Below the pieces are notes generated by a model, which saw nothing but the letters and a program-made list of their open reading frames with translations, ran no database searches and was not told where the DNA came from. A program made the translations under genes and the position numbers. A stretch of DNA of 49,184 nucleotides, taken from an uncultured Mycoplasmatota bacterium (GTDB lineage: Bacteria; Bacillota_I; Bacilli_A; RF39; UBA660). This document shows, piece by piece, positions 22,204 through 47,726 of this stretch. Numbering within the stretch: the stretch's first letter is position 1; each line of letters opens with the position of its first letter. The stretch is from the NCBI GenBank assembly GCA_947574215.1, contig CANPIX010000007.1, positions 1 to 49,184 of the forward strand, given 5' to 3'.

Positions 22204-25200
22204 ATGATAAAAAAATTTAGAAATATAAAAGAGAAAATGGATGAAAAAAAACCTCAAATAGAAAATGAAGAAGAAAAGAAAAAATGGTTTTTGTTAATTC
22301 TTTTAATCCTTTTTGTTCTTTGTTTTTTAATCACTAGTTTTACATTTGGAAAAGATCTTTTTTACAAAGTTTTTTATCCCTCTTCAGCACCTGTGATTAG
22401 TGGTGGTAGCAAAGAGTGGGCATTAAAAAGAACTATAACAGTTATAAAAGATGCAGAAACTAAAAAAGAACTTTCTCATTATGAATATTGCATTCACAAA
22501 GAAAAAAATACAAAAAATTGTGAATGGAAAGTTACAAAAACGAAAAATACAGTAGTAACTTCTACAGGCAAATATTATGTTACCTTTCGTGGAGTCGATA
22601 TAGAGGGGGTTACGGGAAAAAATTCGAATACAGAAGAAGTATATATAGATAACAACAATCCCATTATTGAAAATATTCATTTAACAAATGCCACTACAAA
22701 AAGCGTTTCTATTTCTGTAGAAGCTAAAGATTTTGAAAGTGGAATCGCTACGTACAATTATAGTTTAGATGGAAAAAACTTTGAAGTGGGTAATTACCAA
22801 TATACTTTTAATGATTTAACAAAAGAAGAATTTACTATCTATGTAAAAGTTATAGATAAAGTAGGAAACTTTACGGTTTTAAGTATGGATGTTAAAAATG
22901 ACCAGTGGGAACAAGACGCACCTTATTGCAAATTGAATTGTGATTTGAATAATGATGGAGTATGTGATTTAAATTGCGACACCAATAATGATGGAAAGTG
23001 TGATCTTAATTGTGACACGAATCATGATAATATACCAGATACAAACATTGACATTGATGGAGATAATATTCCAGATATAAATATTGATACAGATGGTGAT
23101 GGTGTATGCAATTGGAATTGTGATACCGATGGCGATGGAAAACCAGATGATAAAGTAATTAATCAAGACCTTGATGGCGATGGTGTTTGTGATATCAATT
23201 GCGATACCAATGGAGATAATATACCAGATGTAAATATTGATACAGATGGTGATGGTGTATGCAATTGGAATTGTGATACCGATGGCGATGGAAAACCAGA
23301 TGATAAAGTGGTAAATCAAGATCCAGATGGCGATGGAGTATGTGATTTAAATTGCGATACTAATGGAGATAATATTCCAGATAATAAAATAGATACCGAT
23401 GGTGATGGGATCTGTAATGTAAACTGTGATGGGTTGGATATTGTTGTGCCTCTTATCAATCTAGATAAAATACCAATTGAGTTTTCTTATGGAAAAAAAT
23501 ACGATTTACCAAGTTATTATCAATTTGGTCCAAGTGGAGGAACTGTTATTTGTACAGTAGATGGTGTAGAGCAAACGGATACAAGTAAAATAGGAATAGG
23601 AACTCATAATATTGAATGTATTGCAAAAGGGAACAATGGAATCAATGTGCGAGTAGCAAAACAAGTTCGTGTAATTGTTCAAGAAGGTAATAATGAAGTT
23701 TGGGATGGCTATATTTTATTAAATCTAAATTATCCAGACAATTCTACCAATTGGGAATGGCGACTTGGTAATGAATTTGAAATAAGAGATGGTTATGATA
23801 ATTCAGGATGGCAAGCGTATACTGGTCCTATTTTAGTAAAAATTGATGATGTAGAAAATGTCTACATACGTTACGAATTAAATGGCGAAACAATAATTGT
23901 AGCTCCTACTGGTAAAGTAGCGGTTTCTATTGAACCAGAAAAATATACTTTACTAAATGGCGAAAAAACAAAAGTACAAATTTATTTTGACGAAAATGCT
24001 ATTACAAAAGAATATAAAATTGGGAATGGACCATGGCAAAATTATACTCAAGAATTTGAAGTCGAAAAAAATACCATTATCGAAGCGCGTGCAACAAAAG
24101 AAGAACGAATTTATGATAGCAATGGAGATTATGTGTATACCAAAAAACTTATGGGTACGGATAGTGTTTTTATAAGCGAATACATAAAAATTGACGGCTC
24201 AATTCCAGATGGACCTAGTAAACCAACTGATCCAGAAGAACCAGATCAACCAGGTAATCCAGGTCAACCTGAAAAACCTGGAGAAGGTGGAACAACTGGT
24301 GGAGGACCAACAGAACCAGGCTCAGGAGTTACAGATGGAGGACCTGGAGGAACCATTACTTATAATCCAACCCCTAAACCAGATGGAACGATTGTTACGA
24401 AACCAACACCAGAAAGCAAACCTTCTACTTATTTAAAAGGTCCGATAATATCTGCGAATCCACAAGAAGAACTATCCAATAAAGTAGAGTTGAACATTAC
24501 AACAGAAGAAGAAGCTCAAAACATTTATTATAAAATTGGCAATGGAAATTACCAAGAATACAATTCTCCTTTCTCCATTCAAAACAATGCTGTAATAAGT
24601 GCCTATTACATTCGAAAAAGCGATGGCAAACTCTCTGATACCAGTGCTTATTATGTACAAAACATTCGAAAAAACAACAAGCCTTATGTAAAAATAGAGA
24701 CTGATCCAAAACCTTATTTAAATAGTACTATTGATCAAGTAACAGTTACCATTAGTGGACAAGATTACGATACATTAGAATATAGTTTTGATGGAATTTT
24801 CTATTTTCCTTATACAACACCAATTACTATAAAGGAAAGTACAACTATTTATGCAAAAGGAACTAATCATTATGGCAGTACAATAGAAAGTTTAGTCATT
24901 ACAACTCAAAATGTACCAATTATAAAAGAAAAATTAGATGTAAATATTTTTACAAATCCAGAAAATCCAAAAAATGGCTTAATTAATAAAACAACTGTAA
25001 GTATTACATATGATGGAAGAGCCACTAAAAAGTACTACAAAATTGGCGAAAATGGAAAATGGGAAGAATACACCAAGGAATTTGAAATTACAGATAATAC
25101 AACCATTTATGCTTATGCTATAAGTGAAAATGGAATTGGAAGCACTTCAAAAGGAATTGATTTCTTAACAACGGGAATAATGTCTCCAATAATTAAAGTT

Positions 25201-28200
25201 CGTCCAAAAGACGCTACCAATGTTGTAACCGTAGAAATTGATTTTGATAAAAACGCTACCACAAAATATTATCAAATTAACGATGGTGAAAAATTGTATT
25301 ACACTGGCCCTTTTGAAGTATTTGAAAATAGTAAAATTTATGCTTACAATCGTAACACTCTTGGAGATGAAGCTGATAGTTCTTATGAAATAAAAAACAT
25401 AGTACCTTTACCTAATTTTATAATTATTGAGTGCGATGAATATTATATTATAAAAGCAAATTATCCAACTTCTTCCCAAAATAGAGAATACAAATGGCAA
25501 CAAGATGGAATTTGGAAAAAATACGATTCGCAAGGAATTTTATTAATTAAAGAAGAGTACAAAGACAAATTATTAAACAATAGTTTTGATGGAATAGAAG
25601 TAAAAGATAAAAACGGAAATAAACTGATTTTTAAAGATCATTATTATGTTTTGGATGGCCCAATTCATCTATTAATGGAAAATTTATTTTTAAGATGGGA
25701 TCGTTCTAACCCTAATGCTCCTACGATACATTTATCTACAATAAGTCCAGCAAGAGAAGTAGAAGCGTATATTAATTATCCAAGTGATGTAACGGAAAAA
25801 TATTATAAAATTGTATTTGCAGATGGTTTGGATACAGGATGGCTAGAATATACAGGAACATTAAAAATTAAAGAAAATAATGCAACGATTTATGCCAAAG
25901 GAATGACTAGAAGCAGTTTGGAAAGCGACGTTAGTTCTATAAAAATAACCAATATAGATCATGTTGGTCCGGATATAGATTTTCATGGAGATTTTATAAC
26001 TCCAAAACAGCAAACGACTATTTTTGTAAGCGCAACAGATGATTTTGCTGTTGAAAAAGTGGCTTGGGCACAAGGAGAACAATCAATAGAGTATTTTAAT
26101 ACGTTTGGCAATTCTTTACCTAATTTTGGGAAATTTAATGCTAATGAAAATGGAAAGTATACTCTATACGCAAGAGATAAAGCAGGAAATGCCAATATTA
26201 AAATTTTTGAAATCAATAATATTGATAAAACCGCACCAGATATCTCCATACTATTATTGACAGAAGAATTAAGTTCAGTGGTAGAATTGCGAATAGATTT
26301 TGGAGACAGTGTAACAAAAGAATATCGAGTTGGAAATCGTGAAGATTGGCTAGAATACAATGGAAATATTAGAATAAGTTCTTATGATGTCTTGGATGTA
26401 TTAAATGAGGATGGAAGTCTTACGGTTTATGCAAAAGGTGTAGATGCAGCCGGAAATAGTCAAGAAGTAAGCGAAGTAATTTATCTTTTGGATACCAATA
26501 TTCCGTTAGAGCCAGAAATAAAACCAGGAAACAGTTATCCTATTTTAACAGATAAAGGAATGATAGATGATTTTAAAGTATCAATTCTTTATGATAAAAC
26601 AACAGAAGATTTAACAAATTATTATAAAATTAACGACGGAGACTGGTTACTTTATACAGGTCCATTTCAACTGGAAGGTGGTAAAGTAAATGCCAAAAGT
26701 GTGAAACCAAGTGGTGTAGAAGTAGAAAGTGAAATTTCTTATAGCGCCAAACTAGACAAAATAGACGCACCAGCTTATGACGCCAACATGGCTACTATTG
26801 CATCCATTTCTCCAAAAAACAGTAAAAAGTTTTTAGTGGATGATATATTAACAGGTAGAAGAGTACGTTTTTATCTAGATGGAGTTCCATCTAGTGATGC
26901 ATTCATTCGAGTATATGATAAAGAAAACAATGAAATTGAAAGAATATCTTTATTTTCAATAGTAACTGTATTAACAATTCCAGAAAATGCTGATTTAGTA
27001 GAAATATATTCAGGAAGCAAATCTTTGGCTATAAAAGAAATTAGTTTAGCAAATGAAGATCTTTTAATAAAAAAAGAAACTCCAATTATATCAGTAAATG
27101 AAAACAATTGGGCTTCTGAGAAAGTTGTCAATATTCTATATCCAACAAATACTTATTTAAATCAATACAGTACTGATTATGGTAAAACATGGCAAGAATA
27201 TACATCTCCTTTTGTAGTTGAAAACATAACAACCGTAATAGCTAGAGTTTTAAAAGAAGATAAAGTAATGACTTCAAGTACTCTTTCTATACAAAAAATA
27301 GATGTAGAGAATCCAGATATTTCCTTAAATATTCCATCTAAAATTCAGATAGGATACTCTATTGATTTACCTACTTCTTATAAGATTGGAATTAGCGGAG
27401 GACAAGCTAGCTGTGAAGCAAATGGAAAAAGAATTACAAATACCAATGAATTAAGCAATGGCAACCACGAAATTATTTGTACAGTTAAAAACAATGTGGG
27501 CAAAGAAAAAACAGTAACAAAAAATATTGAAGTTAAAGATATTAGTCGTTATTCTGGAGAAAGTCTTTTAGATATTTTAGAAAATCCAGATTTAGTTACA
27601 GGAAGATTAATTTTAGAAGCAAATGGAGAAGAATATCCAGTGCATATGTATACCTATGATGAAGATCAAGAGTGGACTACCAACCAAATCTTTGGAGATG
27701 CTAAGGATGTAGGAACCGCAACAACATATGCCCAAAATATGGTAGTAGTAAAAGTAAACGGAAATGTAACTATTGGAAGCGGAGTAACTATTAGGCCATA
27801 CGCTAACGCTTATGGAGGACCAAAGGGATTCACTTTGTACGTAACAGGAAAATTAGAGAATAATGGAACCATTGATAATTCACACGGAGCAAAAGCAATT
27901 GGTCAAAATGTCTATTTATGGAAAAATGAAGACGGTACTTATGAATATATACCTACTAGTGGAGCATCCGGTGCACCGGGTGTAAGTAAATCAAGTGGTC
28001 GTTCTGGAAGCTCAGGTACTGGTCGAAGTACAGGAGGAGGCGGTTCTGGGTCCAGTGCTTCTTCACCTGTATCAGGCTCAGGTTCAGCTGGAACTTCTTA
28101 CTCTGGTGGAGGCGGAGGAGGCGGTACTCACTATAATTCAGCAGGCTCAGCCCAAGGAAATGGAGGAACTGGCGGAAATGGTGCCACAGGAAATGGTGGC

Positions 28201-30924
28201 GGAGGCGGAGGCTCTGGAAATCCAGGTGGTTCTGGTTTAGTAAACGGAACAAATGGAACTGGAGGCTTATTAACCATCTATGCTAATGAATATCAAAATA
28301 AAGGAGTAATATCAGCGAATGGCTGTACAACATCATCTCATTCTTATAGTGGAGGATCTTCTGGAGGAGGAAGCATCAATATTTTTACTAATCAATCTAC
28401 TGGAATTAATCAATTGGGTATTATTACTAATAATAAATATTCTGAAATATTAGGTTCAACATCTGTAAATGGTGGTGCAGCTAATGGTTCAAATTATAAA
28501 GGAGGTTCTGGTGGAAACGGAACCATAAATATTGGTGAAATACGAAAAGGACAATACTATGATTTAAAAGAAGTAATTGATCAAGATATTGAAGCTTATA
28601 TTGACTCAGTAACAATAAAAGGAGAAAGTATCTTATCTATTTTAAAAGAAAATGATTTAAAGAATGGATACTATTTTTTCGTGGCTAATAATGTCAACTA
28701 TCCAGTTCATCTATATACTTATGATGGTGATCAAGAGTGGACAACCAATCAAGTATTTGGAGATGCCAAAGATGTGGGAACCGCATCAACGTATGCTCAA
28801 AATATGGTGATTGTAAAAGTAAATGGAAATTTAACAATTGGACAAGGAACCCAAGTAGTTCCATATTATAATGCATATGGGGGGCCCAAAGGCTTTACCT
28901 TGTACGTAACAGGAAAATTAGAGAATAATGGAATCATTGATAATTCACACGGCGCAAAGGCCGTTGGACAAGATGTCTATTTATGGAAAAATCCGGATGG
29001 AACGTACGAATATGTTCCCGCAAGTGGAGCATCAGGAGCATCGGGTGTAAAATTTTCAAATGGTCGTACTGGAGGAGCAGGAACTAGTCGTCGTACTGGA
29101 GGTGGCGGTTCTGGTAAAAGTAATAGTCGAAACACTGCATCTGGTTCAGGGTCAGCTGGAACTTCTTACTCTGGCGGAGGCGGAGGAGGCGGTACTCAAT
29201 ATAATTCAGCAGGCTCAGCCCAAGGAAATGGAGGAACTGGCGGAAATGGTGGCACAGGAAATGGTGGCGGAGGAGGCGGTACTGGAAATCCAGGCGGCTC
29301 CGGCTTAGCAAAGGGATCAAATGGAACTGGAGGCTTATTAACCATCTATGCTAATGAATACCAAAATAATGGAAGAATCTCAGCGAATGGAGTTAGAGCA
29401 AGTTACGCAAATCATAGTGGGGGTTCTTCTGGAGGTGGAAGTATCAATATTTTTTATGTATCGATTCTTTCTACTGGAACAGCAACTGCCAATGGTGGAA
29501 CATCTAATGGTGGTAATGGAACCGGAGGAGCAGGAGGAAGAGGAACCATTACTTATACGCAATTACAAGAAATAAGTATTACCAGTCAATACTCTTATCC
29601 AGAATACACAGGTACAAATTTAGAAAATGGTTATCATGTAGTTACCATATCTCCATGGGATAAAATCAATAAAATACTCTATTCATTAGATGAAGAAATC
29701 ACATGGGAAGAATACAAAGAAGAATTAAAAGTAGCTTCTGGTACTTCTATAAAAGTAAAAGGTATAAGAAATGATAATACAGAAACAGAGATATTAACGT
29801 ATGAAACGAGCGCAATAACTGATGAAATGGGCAAAGAGTCTTTTGATCAAAATCAGGAAACTTACTCAACAATTCCTGCTGATTCTAAAAAAAGCTTTGT
29901 GATCAACAATCATTTCATTGGAAAAACCATTAGATTTTATTTTGGAAATTCGCCAGCAAGTAACGCAAATATTAAAATTTACAACAAATTAAATACAGAA
30001 TTGCTATCTGTAGATGCAAAAGACAAAGTAACTTTAGTAACTTTACCAGAAGATTCGTATAGAATTGAATTACATGCAGGGGCAAGTGAACTACAAGTTA
30101 ATGAAATTAATCTTAGAGCCGAAACCGTCTATGAGAACAAAACTCCGATAATAAGTGTACGAAGCGATCAAATGAACATTAGTAAAACGATAGAAATTGG
30201 CTTTTTTGAAAATTTTACTAATCAATACAGTTTAGATAATGGAGCAACATGGATGACTTATAGTGGACCTTTTGTTCTAACTTCTCCGTCAATCATTTTT
30301 GCAAGAAGTTTAGATGAATATGGAAATGTTATTGGAAGTAGTAGTTTTCATCTTACAAATTTCTCTAAAACCATGGATGAAACTACTGAACTTTCTGTTG
30401 GCCAATCGGTAACAGCGATTGATGGATCAAAATGGCATGTTATCCAAAATAGTGAAATGGGAAAATCTACCGTTACTTTGCTTTCTGATCGTTTTCTCGA
30501 TGAAAAAGGCAATTACAGCACAGATAGGACTCAAATTCTTTTTGATGCAGACAACCAATCGGACTACTTAATTGAAAAAGAAGAAAATATTGCCTATTTT
30601 ATTCACAATACTTATGCACCAAAAGTTAAAAGTATTTTGAAAGACACTATAGAAGTTTCACTACCATCAATTACAGATATCTTAGCGATTTTAAACTTAG
30701 AGAGTAATGAAGAGACTTTTGAAATTTCTTTAGAGCATTTAGAAACTGATTTTAATTGGCTCTTATCAGAAACCATTTGGACAAATAGCCAAAAAGATGG
30801 TAAAATTTGGGTTATCAATCAGGAAAAAATAAAACTAGCACAAGCAATAGAAGAAAATATCGGTGTTCGTCCAATAATAATAACATCAAAAAAGAATTTA
30901 ATAGAAGAAGGTAAAGAAGAATGA
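22204..30924 (+). CDS. giant multidomain repeat surface protein (2,906 residues)
   Basis: The largest gene of the window. Residues 1-27 are charged and 28-47 form a single membrane anchor. Then come an Ig/FN3-like region (58-235), Asp-rich Cys-containing calcium-type repeats (238-410), a HYR-like domain (413-496), a Pro/Gly linker (664-745), and about eleven repeats of the pattern YYKIGxGxWxxYxxPF...IYAKG that resemble the C-terminal beta domain of chitobiase-type hydrolases. A paired module is at 1526-1629 and 2553-2649, a second HYR-like domain at 1713-1779, and two long glycine-rich modules at 1780-2133 and 2134-2455. The last 180 residues are a separate domain with a VRPIII ending. No LPXTG and no catalytic motif are seen. 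An adhesin or fibre role is inferred. The next gene is coupled by a 4-base overlap. Confidence 0.85.
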   Translation: MIKKFRNIKEKMDEKKPQIENEEEKKKWFLLILLILFVLCFLITSFTFGKDLFYKVFYPSSAPVISGGSKEWALKRTITVIKDAETKKELSHYEYCIHKEKNTKNCEWKVTKTKNTVVTSTGKYYVTFRGVDIEGVTGKNSNTEEVYIDNNNPIIENIHLTNATTKSVSISVEAKDFESGIATYNYSLDGKNFEVGNYQYTFNDLTKEEFTIYVKVIDKVGNFTVLSMDVKNDQWEQDAPYCKLNCDLNNDGVCDLNCDTNNDGKCDLNCDTNHDNIPDTNIDIDGDNIPDINIDTDGDGVCNWNCDTDGDGKPDDKVINQDLDGDGVCDINCDTNGDNIPDVNIDTDGDGVCNWNCDTDGDGKPDDKVVNQDPDGDGVCDLNCDTNGDNIPDNKIDTDGDGICNVNCDGLDIVVPLINLDKIPIEFSYGKKYDLPSYYQFGPSGGTVICTVDGVEQTDTSKIGIGTHNIECIAKGNNGINVRVAKQVRVIVQEGNNEVWDGYILLNLNYPDNSTNWEWRLGNEFEIRDGYDNSGWQAYTGPILVKIDDVENVYIRYELNGETIIVAPTGKVAVSIEPEKYTLLNGEKTKVQIYFDENAITKEYKIGNGPWQNYTQEFEVEKNTIIEARATKEERIYDSNGDYVYTKKLMGTDSVFISEYIKIDGSIPDGPSKPTDPEEPDQPGNPGQPEKPGEGGTTGGGPTEPGSGVTDGGPGGTITYNPTPKPDGTIVTKPTPESKPSTYLKGPIISANPQEELSNKVELNITTEEEAQNIYYKIGNGNYQEYNSPFSIQNNAVISAYYIRKSDGKLSDTSAYYVQNIRKNNKPYVKIETDPKPYLNSTIDQVTVTISGQDYDTLEYSFDGIFYFPYTTPITIKESTTIYAKGTNHYGSTIESLVITTQNVPIIKEKLDVNIFTNPENPKNGLINKTTVSITYDGRATKKYYKIGENGKWEEYTKEFEITDNTTIYAYAISENGIGSTSKGIDFLTTGIMSPIIKVRPKDATNVVTVEIDFDKNATTKYYQINDGEKLYYTGPFEVFENSKIYAYNRNTLGDEADSSYEIKNIVPLPNFIIIECDEYYIIKANYPTSSQNREYKWQQDGIWKKYDSQGILLIKEEYKDKLLNNSFDGIEVKDKNGNKLIFKDHYYVLDGPIHLLMENLFLRWDRSNPNAPTIHLSTISPAREVEAYINYPSDVTEKYYKIVFADGLDTGWLEYTGTLKIKENNATIYAKGMTRSSLESDVSSIKITNIDHVGPDIDFHGDFITPKQQTTIFVSATDDFAVEKVAWAQGEQSIEYFNTFGNSLPNFGKFNANENGKYTLYARDKAGNANIKIFEINNIDKTAPDISILLLTEELSSVVELRIDFGDSVTKEYRVGNREDWLEYNGNIRISSYDVLDVLNEDGSLTVYAKGVDAAGNSQEVSEVIYLLDTNIPLEPEIKPGNSYPILTDKGMIDDFKVSILYDKTTEDLTNYYKINDGDWLLYTGPFQLEGGKVNAKSVKPSGVEVESEISYSAKLDKIDAPAYDANMATIASISPKNSKKFLVDDILTGRRVRFYLDGVPSSDAFIRVYDKENNEIERISLFSIVTVLTIPENADLVEIYSGSKSLAIKEISLANEDLLIKKETPIISVNENNWASEKVVNILYPTNTYLNQYSTDYGKTWQEYTSPFVVENITTVIARVLKEDKVMTSSTLSIQKIDVENPDISLNIPSKIQIGYSIDLPTSYKIGISGGQASCEANGKRITNTNELSNGNHEIICTVKNNVGKEKTVTKNIEVKDISRYSGESLLDILENPDLVTGRLILEANGEEYPVHMYTYDEDQEWTTNQIFGDAKDVGTATTYAQNMVVVKVNGNVTIGSGVTIRPYANAYGGPKGFTLYVTGKLENNGTIDNSHGAKAIGQNVYLWKNEDGTYEYIPTSGASGAPGVSKSSGRSGSSGTGRSTGGGGSGSSASSPVSGSGSAGTSYSGGGGGGGTHYNSAGSAQGNGGTGGNGATGNGGGGGGSGNPGGSGLVNGTNGTGGLLTIYANEYQNKGVISANGCTTSSHSYSGGSSGGGSINIFTNQSTGINQLGIITNNKYSEILGSTSVNGGAANGSNYKGGSGGNGTINIGEIRKGQYYDLKEVIDQDIEAYIDSVTIKGESILSILKENDLKNGYYFFVANNVNYPVHLYTYDGDQEWTTNQVFGDAKDVGTASTYAQNMVIVKVNGNLTIGQGTQVVPYYNAYGGPKGFTLYVTGKLENNGIIDNSHGAKAVGQDVYLWKNPDGTYEYVPASGASGASGVKFSNGRTGGAGTSRRTGGGGSGKSNSRNTASGSGSAGTSYSGGGGGGGTQYNSAGSAQGNGGTGGNGGTGNGGGGGGTGNPGGSGLAKGSNGTGGLLTIYANEYQNNGRISANGVRASYANHSGGSSGGGSINIFYVSILSTGTATANGGTSNGGNGTGGAGGRGTITYTQLQEISITSQYSYPEYTGTNLENGYHVVTISPWDKINKILYSLDEEITWEEYKEELKVASGTSIKVKGIRNDNTETEILTYETSAITDEMGKESFDQNQETYSTIPADSKKSFVINNHFIGKTIRFYFGNSPASNANIKIYNKLNTELLSVDAKDKVTLVTLPEDSYRIELHAGASELQVNEINLRAETVYENKTPIISVRSDQMNISKTIEIGFFENFTNQYSLDNGATWMTYSGPFVLTSPSIIFARSLDEYGNVIGSSSFHLTNFSKTMDETTELSVGQSVTAIDGSKWHVIQNSEMGKSTVTLLSDRFLDEKGNYSTDRTQILFDADNQSDYLIEKEENIAYFIHNTYAPKVKSILKDTIEVSLPSITDILAILNLESNEETFEISLEHLETDFNWLLSETIWTNSQKDGKIWVINQEKIKLAQAIEENIGVRPIIITSKKNLIEEGKEE
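23078..23309 (+). repeat. 79-bp exact direct repeat in the calcium-repeat region
   Basis: Bases 23078-23156 and 23231-23309 are identical, 153 bases (51 codons) apart. They encode NIDTDGDGVCNWNCDTDGDG followed by KPDDK. Exact identity at the DNA level points to recent duplication or gene conversion and makes the locus prone to copy-number change. Confidence 0.85.
27541..29590 (+). repeat. tandem glycine-rich modules, about 356 codons apart
   Basis: Two related modules run one after the other. Each begins with a GES-L-IL helix, YPVHxYTYDxDQEWTTNQ, FGDAKDVG, NAYGGPKGFTLYVTGKLENN, then a glycine-rich stretch with GGGGGGGT and GNGGTGGNG, and ends GGLLTIYANEYQN. A stretch of about 50 bases (from TATAATTCAGCAGGCTCAGC) is identical at 28132 and 29200. 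The second module is somewhat shorter at its end. Confidence 0.85.
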
Positions 30925-39736: not shown

Positions 39737-40022
39737 TTGCATTAAGAAAGAAAAGAAAATTGAGAACTATATACTTTTTAATGAACAGTGGCTTTTTTTG
39801 CTTCTGTGTTTGTCATAAATAAAAAAAACAAAGATGCTATGTACCATATTATTTAATGATGACTGAAGAAGAACCGGTTTGAAACCTAAGTTATTGTGAT
39901 AATAATTTTTCTATTCAAATAGCTTTTGTTAACAGTCATATAAAGCATGGAAAGTATGCACCTGACCTTATTCGATGTATTGTATCTAATGGAATCAGAC
40001 GAACAAAAAAACATTTTTTTAG
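39737..40022 (+). other. gene-free stretch with coding remnants
   Basis: About 290 bases without an intact gene. One frame reads MMTEEEPV, a stop, then NLSYCDNNFSIQIAFVNSH and on through KYAPDLIRCIVSNGIRRTKK to about 40034, where it runs out of frame with the next remnant. This looks like decayed protein-coding DNA that once joined the broken gene downstream, but I cannot name the ancestor. No promoter or RNA gene is evident. Confidence 0.4.
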
Positions 40023-40931
40023 AAAAGAGGAAATAAAGGGATTCAATGGATTGAGTTTGAAAATGGTAGAAAAATAAAATGCTTTTAAAAAAAACTTTTA
40101 TTAGATGAACATTCGATTTATTTTAAGGATGACTTTTCAAAAGAAAAAGGAATTAGTGAAAAAAATAAAAAAGAGTTGTTTGAGTATTTTAAAGAATTAA
40201 AGAAAAAATATGGATTTAATTTTTACAATACTCTCATTTTTGTAACGGGAATTTTTAGAGAACTTATATACGAAAGAAAACAAGAATTAGTAAAAGAATT
40301 TAATGAACAATTAGACTTACATTTTAATATTATTAGTCATGGAATAGAAAATTATTATTTAGGAAAAGCAACAGAACATAATTACAATAATAAAAAAGTG
40401 ATGATTATTAATATGGGTGGAAAAACAACAGAATTAATTACTTTTATTGGCGGAAAAATTATAGACCGTAAAAACTTAATTGTAGGTGTTGCGGATTTAA
40501 TGAACGCTTTTCCAGAAGTTAATGAAAGTTTAAGTAAATGTACAATAGAAGCAATGAACCAATTTGTTAAAGAAAAATTAGTAGATATTTCTTTTGATCA
40601 AGATTATGATTGTGCTATTTTTACTGGTGGAGAAGAGCGATTCGAAATTTTAACGGATTTTGAATTAGAAGAAAATAATTTATTTGATGATGGAATTCAT
40701 AAATATAAAGTATCTTATGAAAATTATGTAAAGGGAACAGAAAAAGTATTTTTTGATTCGAAATATACCTTAGAAAATCTTTACAAATTAATGCCTGGCA
40801 ATCCGAAGTGGATGGATGGAGCAAGACCAGGAGCCATTATACCATTAGCTATATTTGATTTAGCAAATATAAAGACAATTATTCCCTCCGATGTCAACTT
40901 GATTCATGGAGTTATAAACGATTCAAAATAA
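40023..40931 (+). pseudogene. broken Ppx/GppA-type phosphatase gene
   Basis: One frame reads GIQWIEFENGRKIKCF, an in-frame TAA (40086-40088), then KKLLLDEHSIYFKDDFSKEK and on without interruption to 40931. The downstream 251 residues show Ppx/GppA features: LIFVTGIFRELIYERK, HGIENYYLGKA and the glycine loop INMGGKTTELITFIGGK. The N-terminal phosphate-binding half with the DxGSNxxRL motif is missing. The only later start is a TTG at 40176 without a spaced ribosome binding site. A nonsense mutation plus upstream frameshift is the simplest reading; expression of a C-terminal fragment cannot be excluded. Confidence 0.6.
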
Positions 40932-40950
40932 AAAGAAGCGCTACGCTTCC
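40931..40950 (-). terminator. terminator of the CapA-like gene with its stop codon in the loop
   Basis: On the minus strand GAAGCG-TAG-CGCTTC forms a 6-bp stem whose loop is the stop codon at 40941-40943, followed by TTTTTATTTT. On the plus strand the same hairpin has a poor T tract. Confidence 0.7.
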
Positions 40951-42125
40951 TTTAAAGTCCCAATTTGTATTCTTGGGTCCTTTTTTTTGTTTAGAATGGC
41001 TTCGTACTCTTCTTTTATTTTTTTCACATCCTGACCAAGTTCTTTATTTGTTAATTTATAGAATGGAATAATTCTATAATCAGCATAATGCCCATTGTGA
41101 TAAGTATATAGTAAGTCACCTTTTACATTGTCAATTGTAATCGTACTTTCATTATTTTTTACAGTTTTATGAATATCCAATGAAGCCATTAATCCAATTC
41201 TTTTCATTAAACCATCTTGCCCAGATATAAAATTTCCTAAGGAATAAATTACAACTGTATCATTAATATATTCAATAGGTTCTATTACATGAGGGTGCGA
41301 TCCAATAATGACATCGACTCCTAAATCCGCTAAAAATTTAGCTTGATCTTGTTGTTCTTTAGTTGGAGAATGTGTGTATTCAACACCCCAGTGCATAGCA
41401 ACTAGCACAATATCTACTTTCTCTCTTACCGCTTCAACATCTTTTTTTACTTCTTCTTTGTCAAATAGGTTGACTAAATATTCTTTTCCTTTTGGCACCG
41501 GTAATCCGTTTGTTCCATAGGTATAAGCAAGAAAAGCATAAGTAATTCCATTTTTTTCTCCTATAGGACTTCTTGCACGATCTTCGAAAGAATCGTAACT
41601 ACCAGCAGTCATTACGTTTTCTTTATTTCTCCAATATTCTACTGAATTTCTAATGGCTTTCTCCCCACGATCCATAGTATGATTATTGGCAAGACTTACT
41701 AAGTTGAATCCTGCTTTTAAAAAACTATCTCCTACTTCTTGTGGAGAGTTGAATCTAGGATATGTAGAAAGTCCAAGCTCTGTTCCACCTAAAATGGTTT
41801 CTTGATTGTAGTACGCCAAATCATAATTTTTTAGAATCGGTGCAATATCTCTAAGTTGTTTATCAAAATTATACGTTCCGTCTTTTTGTAAACCATCTTT
41901 ATAAGCACCAGAATGGTATAAAGCATCTCCAACCATTACTAAAGATAAATCATATTCTTGCTTTTCATTTTCCTGTGGCTTTACTTCTGGTATTGGTTCT
42001 CTGTTTTCAACTGAAGAATCGGGATTGACAAGTAGTTTACTTTCAATTAGATACAAAGATACACTTCCTATTACCAGTAAAGATAAAAGGAATATCCAAA
42101 TTTTTTTAATTTTATTTTGTTTCAA
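40941..42125 (-). CDS. CapA family membrane-anchored phosphoesterase-like protein
   Basis: 394 residues from a TTG start with GGAG nine bases upstream. One anchor helix (residues 9-28) is followed by a Pro/Glu linker and then the CapA (PGA_cap) metallophosphatase fold. Metal-type motifs are LVMVGDALYH, SLANNHTMDRG, VAMHWGVEY and IIGSHPHVIEP, with YSLGNFISGQ near the end. CapA takes part in poly-gamma-glutamate capsule production in Bacillus, but many family members stand alone, as here, with no capB or capC nearby. The substrate is unknown; the location is the outer face of the membrane. Confidence 0.88.
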   Translation of the reverse strand: MKQNKIKKIWIFLLSLLVIGSVSLYLIESKLLVNPDSSVENREPIPEVKPQENEKQEYDLSLVMVGDALYHSGAYKDGLQKDGTYNFDKQLRDIAPILKNYDLAYYNQETILGGTELGLSTYPRFNSPQEVGDSFLKAGFNLVSLANNHTMDRGEKAIRNSVEYWRNKENVMTAGSYDSFEDRARSPIGEKNGITYAFLAYTYGTNGLPVPKGKEYLVNLFDKEEVKKDVEAVREKVDIVLVAMHWGVEYTHSPTKEQQDQAKFLADLGVDVIIGSHPHVIEPIEYINDTVVIYSLGNFISGQDGLMKRIGLMASLDIHKTVKNNESTITIDNVKGDLLYTYHNGHYADYRIIPFYKLTNKELGQDVKKIKEEYEAILNKKKDPRIQIGTLKEA

Positions 42126-42150
42126 AGATTACAACTCCGCTTCTATTTCT

Positions 42151-42162
42151 ATCATTTTATCA
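42151..42162 (-). promoter_or_regulatory. extended -10 promoter of the CapA-like gene
   Basis: On the minus strand TGATAAAAT is an extended -10 about 30 bases before the TTG start. The -35 region is poor. Confidence 0.4.
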
Positions 42163-42207
42163 CAAATTAAAAAGAAATAGGAAAAAAATAACATACAATT
42201 CGTTTGC

Positions 42208-42247
42208 AATAAAATACATATGCATTGTATTGCATATGTATTTTATT
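42208..42247 (-). terminator. 17-bp perfect stem terminator after the DUF21-like gene
   Basis: AATAAAATACATATGCA (42208-42224) and its exact reverse complement at 42231-42247 flank a 6-base loop. The TAA of the minus-strand gene (42243-42245) lies within the stem. The T-rich 3' arm on the minus strand suits termination; it could act on both strands. Confidence 0.65.
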
Positions 42248-42752
42248 TAGAAATAATTTGGACTATTTTTCCTACCAATAAAACGATAGCATCACTTTGT
42301 TTTGTCGCAATTGTTTTGAAATAAGCTTTTCCTCCAACGGTCAGTGCAGAAATAAAAGAAGTGACAAGTATAGTAGCTAATAAGGGATTCATTTGAAAAG
42401 ATACTGTTAAGTAAAGCGTTAAAGTTGCTCCTAAACTTCCACTGACAATCCCACAAATATCTCCTACAATATCATTACAAACGCTAGATACTTTTGTACT
42501 ATTTTTAATTAAACGTATGCAAGCACTTGCTTCTTTTATTTTTTTAGAATTTCTAGCATGAAAGGGAGCTTCTTCAGCAGTTAATGTGGCCACTCCTATC
42601 ATATCAAATAGAATTCCAATTCCGATTACAGTTAGCAAAATGATTAATAATAAAATAACGTTGAAATCTGAGACATAAGTGGATAATCCGCTAAAAACAG
42701 CGGAAAGTAAAAATGAAATCATAAAGACTTGTAAAATCCATTTACTTTTCAT
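42243..42752 (-). CDS. DUF21/CNNM-like membrane protein
   Basis: 169 residues with four likely membrane helices (about 8-25, 30-50, 100-122, 125-145). Between helices 2 and 3 is a conserved-looking stretch: IGVATLTAEEAPFHARNSKK, then IRLIKNSTKVSSVCNDIVGD and ICGIVSGSLGATL. This resembles the membrane domain of DUF21/CorB-type magnesium-cobalt exporters, without the CBS pair and C-terminal domain, so ion transport is only a guess. It begins 20 bases after the terminator of the long RNA upstream and has a weak AGAAAGAAG site and no promoter of its own, so it may depend on read-through. Confidence 0.5.
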   Translation of the reverse strand: MKSKWILQVFMISFLLSAVFSGLSTYVSDFNVILLLIILLTVIGIGILFDMIGVATLTAEEAPFHARNSKKIKEASACIRLIKNSTKVSSVCNDIVGDICGIVSGSLGATLTLYLTVSFQMNPLLATILVTSFISALTVGGKAYFKTIATKQSDAIVLLVGKIVQIISK

Positions 42753-42771
42753 AATAAAAACTTCTTTCTAT

Positions 42772-42796
42772 AAAAAAAAGTTCCTAAGAACTTTTT
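42772..42796 (-). terminator. intrinsic terminator of the long non-coding transcript
   Basis: On the minus strand AAAAAGTTC and GAACTTTTT form a 9-bp stem with a 4-base loop, followed by further T residues (eight T in all at 42772-42779). Confidence 0.8.
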
Positions 42797-43273
42797 GTAA
42801 CTAATTTAAAAGTGGTATCTCACAAATTAATTTTACGGCTTAGGTCGAGTTGAATTTCTCTATTTTCTCTCCTTTGGTTACCCTCCGGCGATTTCCCCTT
42901 TATTGAAAATAATTAAATGTCACCATTTTAATGACTCGATTGCCACTTAGTCCGTACCTTAATCCTTGTGATGTTGACACTCTAGAGGTTTTCCCTAACG
43001 CATAGAAGTAATACTTATTCGCTTTTGCAGTAGAGTTTTCAAATCATAAAATCGATTATCCCACAATACCACGCACGACATGTGCTTTTCAAAAAAAATG
43101 CTTCAATAAAAGGAGATTGGTTATATGCCATTATAACTTTCCTTAAATTTAAAATTATATACCCACCCTTATCTGGGCGAAAAAAGCAGAATATATAAAG
43201 TGCGTTTCACACAATTGATAGATTTTTAGCCCTATCTTCATATTACGGATGCGACTAGAATAATGCACCACAT
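42772..43273 (-). ncRNA. unassigned structured RNA, about 500 nt
   Basis: This stretch has no reading frame of note on either strand but is a complete transcription unit: a perfect promoter ends at 43280 and an intrinsic terminator lies at 42772-42796. The predicted 5' end (ATGTGGTGCATTATTC) can pair with the 3' region through GTGGT and ACCAC (near 42815), closing the molecule. Inner hairpins include GATAG/CTATC, CGCCC/GGGTG, GTTATA/TATAAC, GCAC/GTGC, and an 8-bp helix GAGTGTCA with TGACATTT. It does not show conserved elements of RNase P RNA, tmRNA or SRP RNA. It could be a large ornate RNA or a very long leader of the DUF21-like gene. Confidence 0.6.
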
Positions 43274-43279
43274 GTTTAA

Positions 43280-43308
43280 ATTATAGCATATTTACATAAA
43301 ATTGTCAA
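43280..43308 (-). promoter_or_regulatory. perfect consensus promoter of the unassigned RNA
   Basis: On the minus strand TTGACA, a 17-base spacer and TATAAT, with an extended -10 (TGC before TATAAT). It is the closest match to consensus in the window. An inverted repeat, GTCAAATT at 43304-43311 and AATTTGAC at 43323-43330, overlaps the -35. Confidence 0.88.
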
Positions 43309-43332
43309 ATTCAGTGAAATAAAATTTGACTT

Positions 43333-43358
43333 AATAAAGTATATTCAAATACTTTATT
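43333..43358 (-). terminator. probable terminator of htpG
   Basis: AATAAAGTAT (43333-43342) and ATACTTTATT (43349-43358) form a perfect 10-bp stem with a 6-base loop, 15 bases past the htpG stop. The T tract is short. Confidence 0.5.
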
Positions 43359-43373
43359 TATAAAACTTCAAAA

Positions 43374-45254
43374 CTATTTTGCAAGAACTTCACAAATCAA
43401 ATTGCTTATTTCAGTAGGATTTTCTAATGATAAGCCTTCAATTAAACGAGCTTGTGCGTATAAAATTTTTGTATATTTCTCTAACTCTTCCAAATCATTT
43501 TTAGAAAATAAGTCTTGTAATTTTTTAATGATTTTATGATTTTCATTGATTTCTAGAATTACTTCAGCTTTTACTTTTTCATTTGTTGGCATTGCGTTCA
43601 TAACTTTTTCCATTTCTACAGAAATATTTCCTTTACTTGTTAGACAAACAGGATGGTTTTTAAGTCGGTGAGTGAATTGGATTCCTGAAACATTTTCCTT
43701 TACAAATTCTTGCATTTTATCAAATAATTTTTTGTTCTCCTCATTTGATTTTTTTAAAGCTTCTTTTTCTTCTTCTGAATCCAAATTTGTGTTTTCATCA
43801 CTAACATTCAAAAATTTCTTTTTGTCATACTCTTGCATAACTTTTAAAACAAATTCGTCCATATAATCGGTAAGATATAAAATTTCGTACCCTTTTTCTT
43901 TAACGGTTTCTACTTGTGGAAGATTGTCTATTTTATCAATAGTTTCTCCACAAGCGTAATAAATGGTATCTTGTTTTTCCATACAGTTGGCTATGTATTC
44001 TTTTAAAGTAATCATTTTTTTCTCTTTTGAAGATGTATAGAGCAATAGATCTTGTAAATCTTCTTTTTTCATTCCGTAAGAATTGTAAATACCATATTTT
44101 AATTGCGTACCAAAATCTTTAAAAAATTTTTCATATTGTTCTCGCTCTTCTTTTAACATGGTTTCTAATTCTTTTTTTATTTTATTTTCAATTCCTTTAG
44201 CGATTAATTCGATTTGGTGGTTTTCTTGTAAAGTTTCACGAGAAATATTTAAAGAAATATCTTCACTATCCACTAATCCTTTTACAAAACTGTAATAATC
44301 GGGTAATAAATCACTGCATTTTTCCATTATTAAAACGCCTTTAGAATAAAGTTGCAAACCTTTTTCGTATTCTTTAGTGTAATAATCATAAGGTGCATGA
44401 GAAGGAATGAATAATAGACTTGTAAAACTGCATTTTCCTTCCACAACACTTCTAAAAGTTCTCAAAGGCTTTTCATAATCATAAAATTTGTCCGCATAAA
44501 AGTCTTGGTATTCTTCCTCTTTAACTTTTTGTTTCTCTTTTTTCCAAATAGGAATACGACTATTTAACGTTTTATCTTCATACGTTTTTATTTCTTTATC
44601 TTCTTTGTCTTTTTCACATTTTTCTTCTTTCATCATAATAGGATAGGTAATATAATCAGAGTATTTTTTAATAAGTCTTTCGATTGTATAGTTTTCCAAA
44701 AATTCATCGTAATTTTCTTCCTCTGTATTGTCTTTTAAATACAAAACGATTTTAGTACCATTATCCTTTTTATCACTTTCCATAATAGAAAAACCATCAG
44801 TACCAGTAGATTCCCACTTATAGGATTTATCACTATCTATACTTTTACTCGTTACAACAACGTTTTTAGCTACCATAAAAGCAGAATAAAAACCAACACC
44901 AAATTGTCCAATAATTTGCATATCTTTACTAGTCTCATTGTTTTCTTTAAAAAGTTCAGATCCACTTCTAGCAATTGTTCCTAAGTTGTTTTCCAATTCT
45001 TCTTCTGTCATACCAATTCCATTATCGCAAATGGTTAAGGTCCTAGCTTTTTTATCTATCTCAATGCGTATTTCTAATTCTTCTTTTTTAATATTTAAGG
45101 CATCATTTGTTAAAGAATTGTAATAAATTTTATCAAGTGCATCGCTTGCATTAGAAATCAACTCTCGTAAAAAAATTTCTCGATTGGTATAAATTGAATT
45201 AATCATCATATCCAATAATTTTTTTGATTCAGCTTTGAATTGCTTTTTCTTCAT
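43374..45254 (-). CDS. htpG: molecular chaperone HtpG (Hsp90)
   Basis: 626 residues from the ATG at 45254 (MKKKQFKAESKKLLDMM). A longer frame to 45323 would run through the promoter and CIRCE site and is rejected. The N-terminal ATPase shows ELISNASDALDKI, CDNGIGMTEEEL and GQFGVGFYSAFMVA; the middle domain has VDSEDISLNISRETLQ, and the C-terminal dimerisation domain follows, with Glu/Lys-rich linkers. It is an ATP-dependent folding chaperone in the cytosol. Expression should be heat-inducible through HrcA. Confidence 0.97.
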   Translation of the reverse strand: MKKKQFKAESKKLLDMMINSIYTNREIFLRELISNASDALDKIYYNSLTNDALNIKKEELEIRIEIDKKARTLTICDNGIGMTEEELENNLGTIARSGSELFKENNETSKDMQIIGQFGVGFYSAFMVAKNVVVTSKSIDSDKSYKWESTGTDGFSIMESDKKDNGTKIVLYLKDNTEEENYDEFLENYTIERLIKKYSDYITYPIMMKEEKCEKDKEDKEIKTYEDKTLNSRIPIWKKEKQKVKEEEYQDFYADKFYDYEKPLRTFRSVVEGKCSFTSLLFIPSHAPYDYYTKEYEKGLQLYSKGVLIMEKCSDLLPDYYSFVKGLVDSEDISLNISRETLQENHQIELIAKGIENKIKKELETMLKEEREQYEKFFKDFGTQLKYGIYNSYGMKKEDLQDLLLYTSSKEKKMITLKEYIANCMEKQDTIYYACGETIDKIDNLPQVETVKEKGYEILYLTDYMDEFVLKVMQEYDKKKFLNVSDENTNLDSEEEKEALKKSNEENKKLFDKMQEFVKENVSGIQFTHRLKNHPVCLTSKGNISVEMEKVMNAMPTNEKVKAEVILEINENHKIIKKLQDLFSKNDLEELEKYTKILYAQARLIEGLSLENPTEISNLICEVLAK

Positions 45255-45278
45255 AATTATCTCTTCTTTCTTATAAGT

Positions 45279-45307
45279 ATAGTAACACCAGAAATAGCAC
45301 TTGTCAA
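45279..45307 (-). promoter_or_regulatory. sigma-A promoter of htpG
   Basis: On the minus strand TTGACA, 17 bases, TACTAT, with TGT in front of the -10. The -35 lies inside the CIRCE element, so repressor binding would block RNA polymerase directly. Confidence 0.85.
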
Positions 45308-45320
45308 CGGTGAGTGCTAT
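45294..45320. promoter_or_regulatory. CIRCE operator (HrcA binding site)
   Basis: ATAGCACTT, nine bases, GAGTGCTAT: the CIRCE consensus is TTAGCACTC-N9-GAGTGCTAA, and the core AGCACT/AGTGCT is intact with the exact 9-base spacer. It overlaps the htpG -35 and is also 20 bases upstream of the AriA-like gene's -35. Confidence 0.92.
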
Positions 45321-45339
45321 CAATAAAAAATGGAAAAAA

Positions 45340-45368
45340 TTGGAAATAAGAAAAAAGTATTGTATAAT
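45340..45368 (+). promoter_or_regulatory. promoter of the PARIS-like gene pair
   Basis: TTGGAA at 45340-45345 and a perfect TATAAT at 45363-45368 with a 17-base spacer. The ATG at 45391 follows with TAGGTGA as ribosome binding site. It diverges from htpG. Confidence 0.7.
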
Positions 45369-45390
45369 AGTTTTAGAAATTAGGTGAAGT

Positions 45391-46776
45391 ATGAAAAGAA
45401 AACCTTTTATTAAAAGATTTCAAATTGAAGAACTGTTCGGAATTTATAATGTGGATATACCTTTTGATGATGATATAAATATATTTGTAGGGGAAAACGG
45501 ATTAGGGAAGACAACGATTTTAAATTGTATTAATTATGTTTTGCAATGTGATTCTGATAATTTATATCATATTAACTTCAAAAGAATAATTGTTACATTT
45601 CAAGATAAAACAAAATTAAAAATAAATCATGATGAAATTTTAACTGATGCAATGTTTGATATAAATTCGAGGAGACATTTTATCTATAATAGCGATTTAG
45701 AATATGATAAATCATCCTTTGTCTCTCAAGTAAAAACTCTTTATAGACAATTAAAAATTAATGAAATGGATATGAATGTGCATGAAATGTCTTTAATCAT
45801 AGCAAGGCAAATTCGACCATTTTCCGTAGGAAATCGACTTCAAATTGAAAAAATAATAACAGAACTGGAAAACAACTATGAAGACGATTGGGAAATGATT
45901 ATTCAGAAAAAATTAAAAAACAATATTATTTACTTACCTACTTACAGGAGAATAGAAGAGGATTTTAACAAATGTATGAATAACGATATGAAATATCGTA
46001 ATGATATTATGAAAAAAATTTCTAATCTTCAATTCGGTATGAACGATGTTGAGCAACTTATTAAAAATACTTGTGACGAATTAAGAAATAATACAAATGA
46101 AGGCTTTAAAGAAATGACAAGTAATTTGCTTAAAAATTATGTTTCTATGTTAAAAAATAAATCCAAAAAAGTAAAAGTCATTAGACACAAAATAGAAGAA
46201 TCAAAATTGAGAATTATTTTTGAAAGATTAGCTGAGAAAATAGATGAAGATGTAAAAAAATCAATTATAGAATTTACGAATCAAAGTGAAAAAATAACTG
46301 ATTTTGAGTACAGTTATTTAGTAATTATTATCAACAGTTTAATTGAAATTTACGAAAAAACAAAAGCTATGGATGAAAGTTTAGATAAATTTGTATGTGT
46401 TTGTAATAAATATTTAGAGAATAATACATTTAAGTACAATCCATTTAAAATTGAATGTACTCTTTTACAAGAATATGGAGGAGAGCCAATTGAATTTAAA
46501 AATCTTTCTTCTGGAGAAAAACAAATTGTGTCTCTATTCTCAAAGTTATATCTTTCCAAAGATGAAAAAAACATCATCTTATTTGATGAGCCTGAACTTT
46601 CTTTGTCTATAGTATGGCAATCAAGGCTTTTACCAGATATCATAGAATCCAATAAATGCGATTTTATGGTTGTTATTACTCATTCACCATTTATATTTGA
46701 CAATGAATTTAAACAATATACAAAAGACATTAAAAATTATATTACACCTATTAAAGAAAAAATGCTAATTGAGTAA
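45391..46776 (+). CDS. ariA: AriA-like ABC-type ATPase of a PARIS-like defence pair
   Basis: 461 residues. Walker A is GENGLGKTT (34-42), the ABC signature LSSGEKQ lies at about 372-378, Walker B is IILFDEPELSLS (about 396) and a switch histidine is in VITHSPFIF. The part between is helical and probably forms a coiled insertion. This is the OLD/AAA-type ABC ATPase architecture. The gene directly after it encodes a DUF4435 protein, the arrangement of AriA-AriB in PARIS, where AriA forms a scaffold that holds AriB until a phage anti-restriction protein triggers release. The assignment rests on architecture and context. Lys-rich codon use does not differ clearly from its neighbours. Confidence 0.7.
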   Translation: MKRKPFIKRFQIEELFGIYNVDIPFDDDINIFVGENGLGKTTILNCINYVLQCDSDNLYHINFKRIIVTFQDKTKLKINHDEILTDAMFDINSRRHFIYNSDLEYDKSSFVSQVKTLYRQLKINEMDMNVHEMSLIIARQIRPFSVGNRLQIEKIITELENNYEDDWEMIIQKKLKNNIIYLPTYRRIEEDFNKCMNNDMKYRNDIMKKISNLQFGMNDVEQLIKNTCDELRNNTNEGFKEMTSNLLKNYVSMLKNKSKKVKVIRHKIEESKLRIIFERLAEKIDEDVKKSIIEFTNQSEKITDFEYSYLVIIINSLIEIYEKTKAMDESLDKFVCVCNKYLENNTFKYNPFKIECTLLQEYGGEPIEFKNLSSGEKQIVSLFSKLYLSKDEKNIILFDEPELSLSIVWQSRLLPDIIESNKCDFMVVITHSPFIFDNEFKQYTKDIKNYITPIKEKMLIE

Positions 46777-47726
46777 TGAAAAATGATTTAATTGACGCAA
46801 TGTCAAAATCTATAGGAAAAGACGTTGCCGTATTTCAAAAATTTGTACTTGAGTATAAAAAATATAATAATACTTTATTTTCTTTTGTAGAAGGAGAAGA
46901 TTTTTGTTATTATAACCCTCGAATTAGACAAAGAGTAAATCCAGAAGATATAATATATTATAAATGTGATGGCAAAAGCAATGTCATAGGTGTATATAAT
47001 TTAATAAAGAAGAAATTACAAATAAGAAACAATAATACAATGATGTTTTTTGTAGATAGAGATTATAATTTTGATAAAGTGCCAAAAGAAATTTACATTA
47101 CTGATTACTATGCAATAGAAAATTTTTATCTAAACGAAAATACTGTGAAGAATATATTGGAAAATTTTATGGAAATGAATACCCATAGCAAAAACTATAA
47201 ACAGAGCTTAAATTTCTATAAAAAAACATACGCTGAGTACAGTATTTTTGCAGTAAAATTAAATTCTTTTTACTATACAATAAGAAAGCATGAAAAGTTA
47301 AATGGACTTCCAAGAGCAAACTTTGGGATATTAAAATTTTCTAAATTTATAGAAAAAGATAGCTTAGATAATTTTCTAATGAAACAGATAAGTTATGAAA
47401 GATTATTAAAAATGTATACTATTTCTTATGATATTCCAATACAAAGTTTTCAAGAAAATGAGTTACTATTTAATGAAACAGATCATACCAACTTTAGAGG
47501 AAAATTTGAATTAGAATTTTTGCAGTGGATTTTAAATAAGATAAGAATTTCGATAAAAGAAGGCAACTTAGACTTTGATAAAGATAAGGTTTGTAAGTAT
47601 GATTTTCATACTGATGCAATGAAAGTTTTAAGTACTTATGCCCATACGCCAAAATCTCTTTATGAATATATTGATCAGAATGGCTGTAAAAATATTGAAA
47701 AAATTATTTATACAGATGTTTCTTAA
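46776..47726 (+). CDS. ariB: AriB-like DUF4435/TOPRIM effector of a PARIS-like pair
   Basis: 316 residues. Features of DUF4435 are present in order: FSFVEGEDFCYY with a TOPRIM-type Glu at 39, YYKCDGKSNVIGVYNLI, MMFFVDRDYNF as the DxD metal site, and YITDYYAIENFYL. In PARIS, AriB is the toxic nuclease, which cleaves host tRNA after release from AriA. Its ATG shares one base with the ariA stop, so the two are translationally coupled. A terminator follows. An alternative is another OLD-TOPRIM-type pair such as a Gabija-like system, but there is no UvrD helicase here and the DUF4435 motifs favour PARIS. Confidence 0.7.
   Translation: MKNDLIDAMSKSIGKDVAVFQKFVLEYKKYNNTLFSFVEGEDFCYYNPRIRQRVNPEDIIYYKCDGKSNVIGVYNLIKKKLQIRNNNTMMFFVDRDYNFDKVPKEIYITDYYAIENFYLNENTVKNILENFMEMNTHSKNYKQSLNFYKKTYAEYSIFAVKLNSFYYTIRKHEKLNGLPRANFGILKFSKFIEKDSLDNFLMKQISYERLLKMYTISYDIPIQSFQENELLFNETDHTNFRGKFELEFLQWILNKIRISIKEGNLDFDKDKVCKYDFHTDAMKVLSTYAHTPKSLYEYIDQNGCKNIEKIIYTDVS

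Follow-up and report, generated by a model that had tools for sequence, protein, structure and literature searches.

To our knowledge, few bacterial RNAs that have no known biochemical function are as large and as well conserved as OLE RNA. In other organisms it binds the protein OapA, reaches the membrane and aids growth in ethanol, in the cold and at high Mg2+, and OapA resembles metal transporters, as described in the texts of PMC12265935 and PMC11332333. OLE dimers seen by cryo-EM meet at L4, at the L5, L6 and L7 loops and at L9.3 (as described in PMC12286853 and PMC12265935). The full-length type (Rfam RF01071), found in Halalkalibacterium halodurans and Clostridium acetobutylicum, measures about 600 nt. 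Two shorter variants are set out in the text of Fernando & Breaker 2024 (PMC11332333): variant 1 in the TANB77 clade, with a shortened P9, and variant 2 in the RF39 clade, whose hosts are uncultured gut Bacillota with reduced genomes.

Here we analysed a stretch of 49,184 nt (the window) from an uncultured bacterium of the RF39 lineage, and we are highly confident that it carries the ole gene of a gut bacterium (Bacillota) with a reduced genome, and that this gene gives a discrete short-type OLE RNA of ~500 nt, which would work with an OapA partner in a pared-down membrane particle. The window also holds, on the plus strand at 45391-47726 and directly upstream of htpG, an AAA ATPase and a DUF4435 protein that match AriA and AriB and are likely a PARIS anti-phage system. 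At 22204-30924 (plus strand) it holds a single repeat-rich frame of 2906 aa that seems to encode a giant surface protein; the genome measures 1.1 Mb.

An OLE RNA gene with its own promoter and terminator

A cmscan search of the whole window against Rfam returned a single match, to OLE RNA (RF01071), on the minus strand at 42796..43287. The 492-nt match covered the model from end to end (1-616) and scored 225.5 bits (E 2.3e-62), the gathering cut-off being 50 bits. ROOL, GOLLD, RNase P RNA, tmRNA and SRP RNA gave no above-threshold Rfam match anywhere in the window, and ARAGORN found no tRNA or tmRNA in it. The minus-strand gene of ~500 nt is the ole gene, encoding a shortened form of the known OLE RNA class, and it is single-copy in its genome. 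A previous interpretation made from the letters of the window alone (the sequence-only reading) had assigned the RNA to no known family, which the OLE match refutes. It had tentatively placed the RNA in the size range of large ornate RNAs such as ROOL; the large ornate type holds, and a ROOL match is absent. Its statement that conserved parts of RNase P RNA, tmRNA and SRP RNA are missing is borne out, and OLE was one of the families that it had listed for comparison by cmscan, where neither rnpB nor ssrA matched.

The predicted RNA gene spans 43273..42772 on the minus strand (~502 nt), with its start placed 7 nt after the -10 box and its end at the terminator U-tract. The promoter, at 43280..43308 (minus), is of the sigma-70 type with an extended -10 (TGC). 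Its -35 box TTGACA (43308..43303) and -10 box TATAAT (43285..43280) are separated by a 17-nt spacer, and a TG lies one base upstream of the -10 box. This was the sole site to score 12/12 among 38 promoter-like sites in 40000..46000, and the promoters of related OLE genes match at 10-12 of 12 positions. Transcription is predicted to end at an intrinsic terminator, AAAAAGUUC-UUAG-GAACUUUUU followed by a U-tract (42772..42796, minus). Of 13 genus sequences compared, that of the window among them, 12 share this hairpin and the 13th has a different one. No credible reading frame was found inside the RNA gene, the longest minus-strand frames being 30 and 38 aa. The RNA termini pair to form P1, in which GUGGU (43267..43271) meets ACCAC (42816..42812). 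The promoter, the lack of a reading frame, the terminator and the pairing of the ends had all been recognised in the sequence-only reading. The discrete locus of ~500 nt that it described is likewise real; it had given no strand, and all of the features are on the minus strand.

The OLE fold is supported by covariation

We examined covariation, as had also been proposed from the sequence, in an alignment (A2) of the window RNA and its relatives (12 short, 7 full-length), using RNAalifold for the consensus. The consensus contains 117 pairs, with 97% of cells paired. Two-sided (compensatory) changes were observed at 78 of the 117 pairs, and in helices 3 and 4 all 11 alignment pairs showed them. 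None of 500 shuffles reached 78, and the covariation score was 0.50 compared to 0.20 in shuffles. Slid controls gave 20-28 such pairs and scores of 0.09-0.13; these controls somewhat favour the consensus, because the structure was derived from the same alignment, a weakness of which the independent Rfam match is free. The single-sequence folding energy was unremarkable (z -0.89) and therefore uninformative. Folding stability was dropped as evidence, and the structure claim leans on the family match and covariation.

The window RNA lacks P7, P8 and the distal part of P9

The cmscan alignment contained two large gaps, one at model positions ~196-278, corresponding to P7 and P8, and one in the distal half of P9. 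With P7, P8 and P9.3 deleted, the 492-nt match fits the described short variants and not the full-length type. All parts named below are on the minus strand. Within P2, the palindrome CUAG (43255..43258) is invariant in the alignment and is probably the first of two palindromic OapA-binding sites; the location of that site follows the text of PMC12265935, and its assignment to this sequence is ours. The 5' strand of P3/P3.1 (43240..43253) pairs with 43014..42999 over 5+7 bp, as indicated by the duplex and by covariation, and this rod, which is proposed to span the membrane, is retained at its full length of 12 bp. The A-rich L4 loop, CUAAAAAUC (43221..43229), is conserved in the variants and is a dimer contact in the cryo-EM work described in PMC12286853. 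Both cmscan and the alignment place L5.1 (CGCCCAG, 43173..43179) and its predicted kissing partner L6.1 (AAUGGCAU, 43125..43132), followed by an A/U-rich linker (43082..43108) in place of P7 and P8 and by a P9 remnant (43021..43079) without the distal, palindromic P9.3 kissing loop. Domain 2 (P10-P15, 42812..42985) is kept, including the GGUAAC loop in P13, by cmscan, alignment and covariation.

The J4a/5 strand of full-length OLE (GCAYAUC..UGAA), which belongs to P4a and to the k-turn where OapC binds, is replaced in the window RNA. Its place is occupied by a putative small hairpin, GUGUG-AAA-CGCAC (43200..43212), tentatively drawn from the alignment. This hairpin was considered as a conserved new element and rejected, as it is confined to the genus, varies there merely by a G-U/G-C exchange and is absent from more distant variants.

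Compared to full-length OLE, the window RNA shares P1-P6, domain 2, L4, L5.1, L6.1, the P3 rod and a linked oapA. It differs in its length of about 500 nt, in lacking P7, P8 and P9.3 and in that genes for OapB and OapC were not found. The ole gene of H. halodurans lies within a polycistronic transcript according to the text of PMC12265935, whereas the window ole has its own promoter and terminator. As in variant 2 of PMC11332333, P7 and P8 are wholly absent, OapB and OapC are missing and oapA is kept; in addition, the window RNA has lost the kissing loop of distal P9 and has its J4a/5 k-turn strand replaced, two features on which the text of that paper is silent and which its figures may show. 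The shortened P9 is shared with variant 1, in which, according to the same text, P7 and P8 are short but present and the OapB site in P13 is often missing; in contrast, the window RNA has neither P7 nor P8 and keeps the GGUAAC core of P13. The window RNA adds one more member to a known class, and its variant type has been described before.

With respect to the known dimer contacts, L4, L5.1 and L6.1 are kept in the window RNA and L9.3 is lost across its genus. Among 61 RNAs with a full P9, 49 carried a 6-nt palindrome in the middle of the tip, compared to a mean of 18 and a maximum of 29 in shuffles. These P9.3 palindromes were mostly TGGCCA, TAGCTA, TGTACA or TGATCA (full-length OLE, L002-L159), and the remaining 12 RNAs still showed a GGCC or AGCT core. 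Palindromes that interchange in this way are the expectation for a homodimer kissing loop, and they therefore provide independent comparative support for such a loop at P9.3. For the rows of the OapA tree described below, the retention of P9 palindromes relies on L068, L071, L080 and the mini-OLE RNAs, the palindromic words in L061, L064 and L103 falling outside the P9 loop.

The downstream gene encodes OapA

The next gene, oapA (42243..42752, minus), has its ATG at 42752, 20 nt beyond the U-tract of the OLE terminator, and encodes a 169-aa CNNM-like membrane protein, as judged by alignment, model and fold comparison. A Pfam search with the window protein alone gave nothing at the usual threshold, CNNM being sub-threshold (E 0.065); a PDB sequence search gave no match and an NCBIfam search nothing convincing. 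PF01595 (CNNM, DUF21) was touched by 40 of 43 OapA homologs. The nearest folds to the predicted structure (pLDDT 85) were MtCorB (Z 13.9) and CorC (Z 12.6), and unrelated helical proteins scored lower, at Z about 8. The motif CNDIVGDICG holds D94 and D98, both invariant in the 43 sequences. They form the DxxxD that distinguishes OapA from CNNM domains, which are without it according to the text of PMC11332333. The CNNM-like fold, the DxxxD motif and the co-occurrence with OLE together identify the downstream protein as OapA, in line with the DUF21-like gene that the sequence-only reading had placed 20 bases past the terminator. OapA has the CNNM transmembrane fold in common with the CNNM-CBS magnesium proteins MpfA/CorB, from which it differs in its 169 aa, in having no CBS or CorC domain and in carrying DxxxD. 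No true MpfA was found in the organism's own genome. In most genus members oapA is intact, at 72-82% identity. Near position 6311 in L075 and L077, from related assemblies, oapA is in two overlapping frames, reflecting either a frameshift or a sequencing indel.

OapC (PF01248, L7Ae-type) was found neither in the organism's own genome nor in the genus or the other family genomes tested, all of them drafts. Carriers of full-length OLE were among these genomes, and the idea that OapC presence tracks retention of the k-turn strand was accordingly abandoned. Each family genome tested, again as a draft, held only L24-sized and NusG-sized KOW proteins, and the L24-sized one of the window sits in a ribosomal operon. 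With KOW proteins limited to these two sizes, we conclude that there is no OapB. The missing OapB and OapC agree with the statement in the text of PMC11332333 that RF39 and TANB77 organisms, with their short OLE variants, are largely without both. bS21 is present in the organism's own genome (G000:C11:29964-30113).

Most short OLE RNAs form one lineage that includes a mini-OLE form

A 99/98 branch of the 108-row OapA tree separates off the window with 38 other carriers of shortened RNAs, and nearly all RNAs lacking P7 and P8 are on that side of it. The short RNA and its OapA are therefore of a single lineage. The shortened RNAs L100 and L160 were placed elsewhere in the tree and represent separate shortenings.

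Nested in the short-RNA lineage is a 100/99 clade of three related species (G079, loci L087 and L167; G213, L166; G150, L165) with an even shorter RNA, which we call mini-OLE. These RNAs gave matches of 378-381 nt at 134-139 bits (for example L087:5610-5990), are 92-95% identical to one another and have a core of ~345 nt between the P1 strands. Everything from P4a to P8 is gone. P1, the CUAG of P2, L4 and domain 2 are retained, together with a P3 that measures 11-13 bp, a P9 that carries the palindrome UGAUCA and the TTGACA-17 promoter, and oapA lies about 10 nt past the match. We found no report of this form in the main texts of the OLE papers that we examined, and it may be the part of our findings that is new.

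Contig ends truncate the other very short OLE matches, those in G285, G327, G142 and G325, which were set aside. In G374 (L163:1501-1877), a shared GGGGATAT marks the point where OLE passes directly into the interior of oapA, through a short-homology deletion or an assembly error, and this locus was not accepted as a genuine very short OLE.

OLE and oapA are kept and lost together

Across 60 genomes, the organism's own included, OLE and OapA were both present in an identical set of 21 and both absent from the remaining 39. A comparison of the OLE list with the OapA list over 386 family genomes (Fisher test) gave 245 with both, 4 with OLE only, 8 with OapA only and 129 with neither, so that the two occur together in 245 of the 257 genomes that have either. 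OLE followed by oapA is the order retained in most relatives. The pair can be unlinked: G010 (contigs C47 and C10) and G024 (C3 and C12) have a complete OLE with its flanks and oapA on a separate contig.

The sequence-only reading had offered, as an alternative, an exceptionally long riboswitch-like leader for the DUF21-like gene, and such a leader would control this CNNM-like gene by termination. The role would suit an RNA directly upstream of oapA, with its terminator 20 nt ahead of the start codon and some read-through possible. However, the RNA matches a trans-acting family over its full length, and in the three mini-OLE species no terminator like that of the genus was found between RNA and oapA. 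The leader interpretation is further disfavoured because the terminator ahead of oapA is conserved in the genus and because G010 and G024 have the two genes on separate contigs, G010 with the OLE promoter and terminator retained. We consider a leader extremely unlikely and favour a discrete OLE RNA.

Both OLE and oapA are missing from 9 of the 21 other genus members, where incompleteness predicts 3.2 (P about 0.002), and loss in the genus is thus common. A second alternative is that the window gene is decaying and heading for loss, the function of the RNA particle being gone. The excess of losses would fit decay, as would the missing P7, P8, distal P9 and k-turn strand and the failure to find OapB and OapC in any family genome tested. 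Decay is difficult to reconcile with the conservation, throughout the genus, of the promoter (10-12 of 12) and the terminator, with the strength of the two-sided covariation and the long runs of invariant positions, or with an oapA that is intact in most genus members; where loss occurs, both partners vanish. Decay is therefore very unlikely to explain the window gene, and it is likewise improbable in those members of the genus where OLE is retained.

Of the family genomes G001-G036, 16 have neither OLE nor OapA. A true CNNM/MpfA protein was found in just one of these, G036, and in the other 15 drafts MpfA was not above threshold. The loss of OLE and OapA without MpfA sits awkwardly with the proposal that MpfA takes over from OLE, bearing in mind that all absences rest on draft metagenome assemblies, the organism's own genome being 92% complete.

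Discussion

We propose that an OLE RNA of ~500 nt, without P7, P8 and the P9.3 loop, would be transcribed from its own strong promoter and would bind the CNNM-like OapA at the membrane. By analogy with the cryo-EM dimers, two such RNAs may dimerise via the L4 and L5.1/L6.1 loop pairs. The particle would be a simpler one of RNA and OapA, perhaps with bS21, and would have neither OapB nor OapC. It could act on OapA, likely a divalent-metal transporter, to provide stress tolerance as in H. halodurans. As OapB, OapC, the k-turn strand and the P9.3 loop are missing, its biochemistry may differ from that of the well-studied OLE particle.

The two short forms differ in what they have given up. The window RNA is without P7, P8, P9.3 and the k-turn strand but has L4 with L5.1/L6.1, whereas mini-OLE is without P5-P8 but has L4 with the UGAUCA of P9. 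We put at even odds the proposal that the OLE particle has been pared down stepwise, with the elements shared by both forms (P1-P3 rod, L4, domain 2 and OapA) making up the minimal working particle and some RNA-dimer contact kept in each form. Together, these results suggest that OapB, OapC and the k-turn serve as accessories in this lineage, unlike the RNA, OapA, domain 2 and the P3 rod. Short natural OLE forms, especially those of ~345 nt, reveal which parts are dispensable and offer small constructs for structural and functional work.
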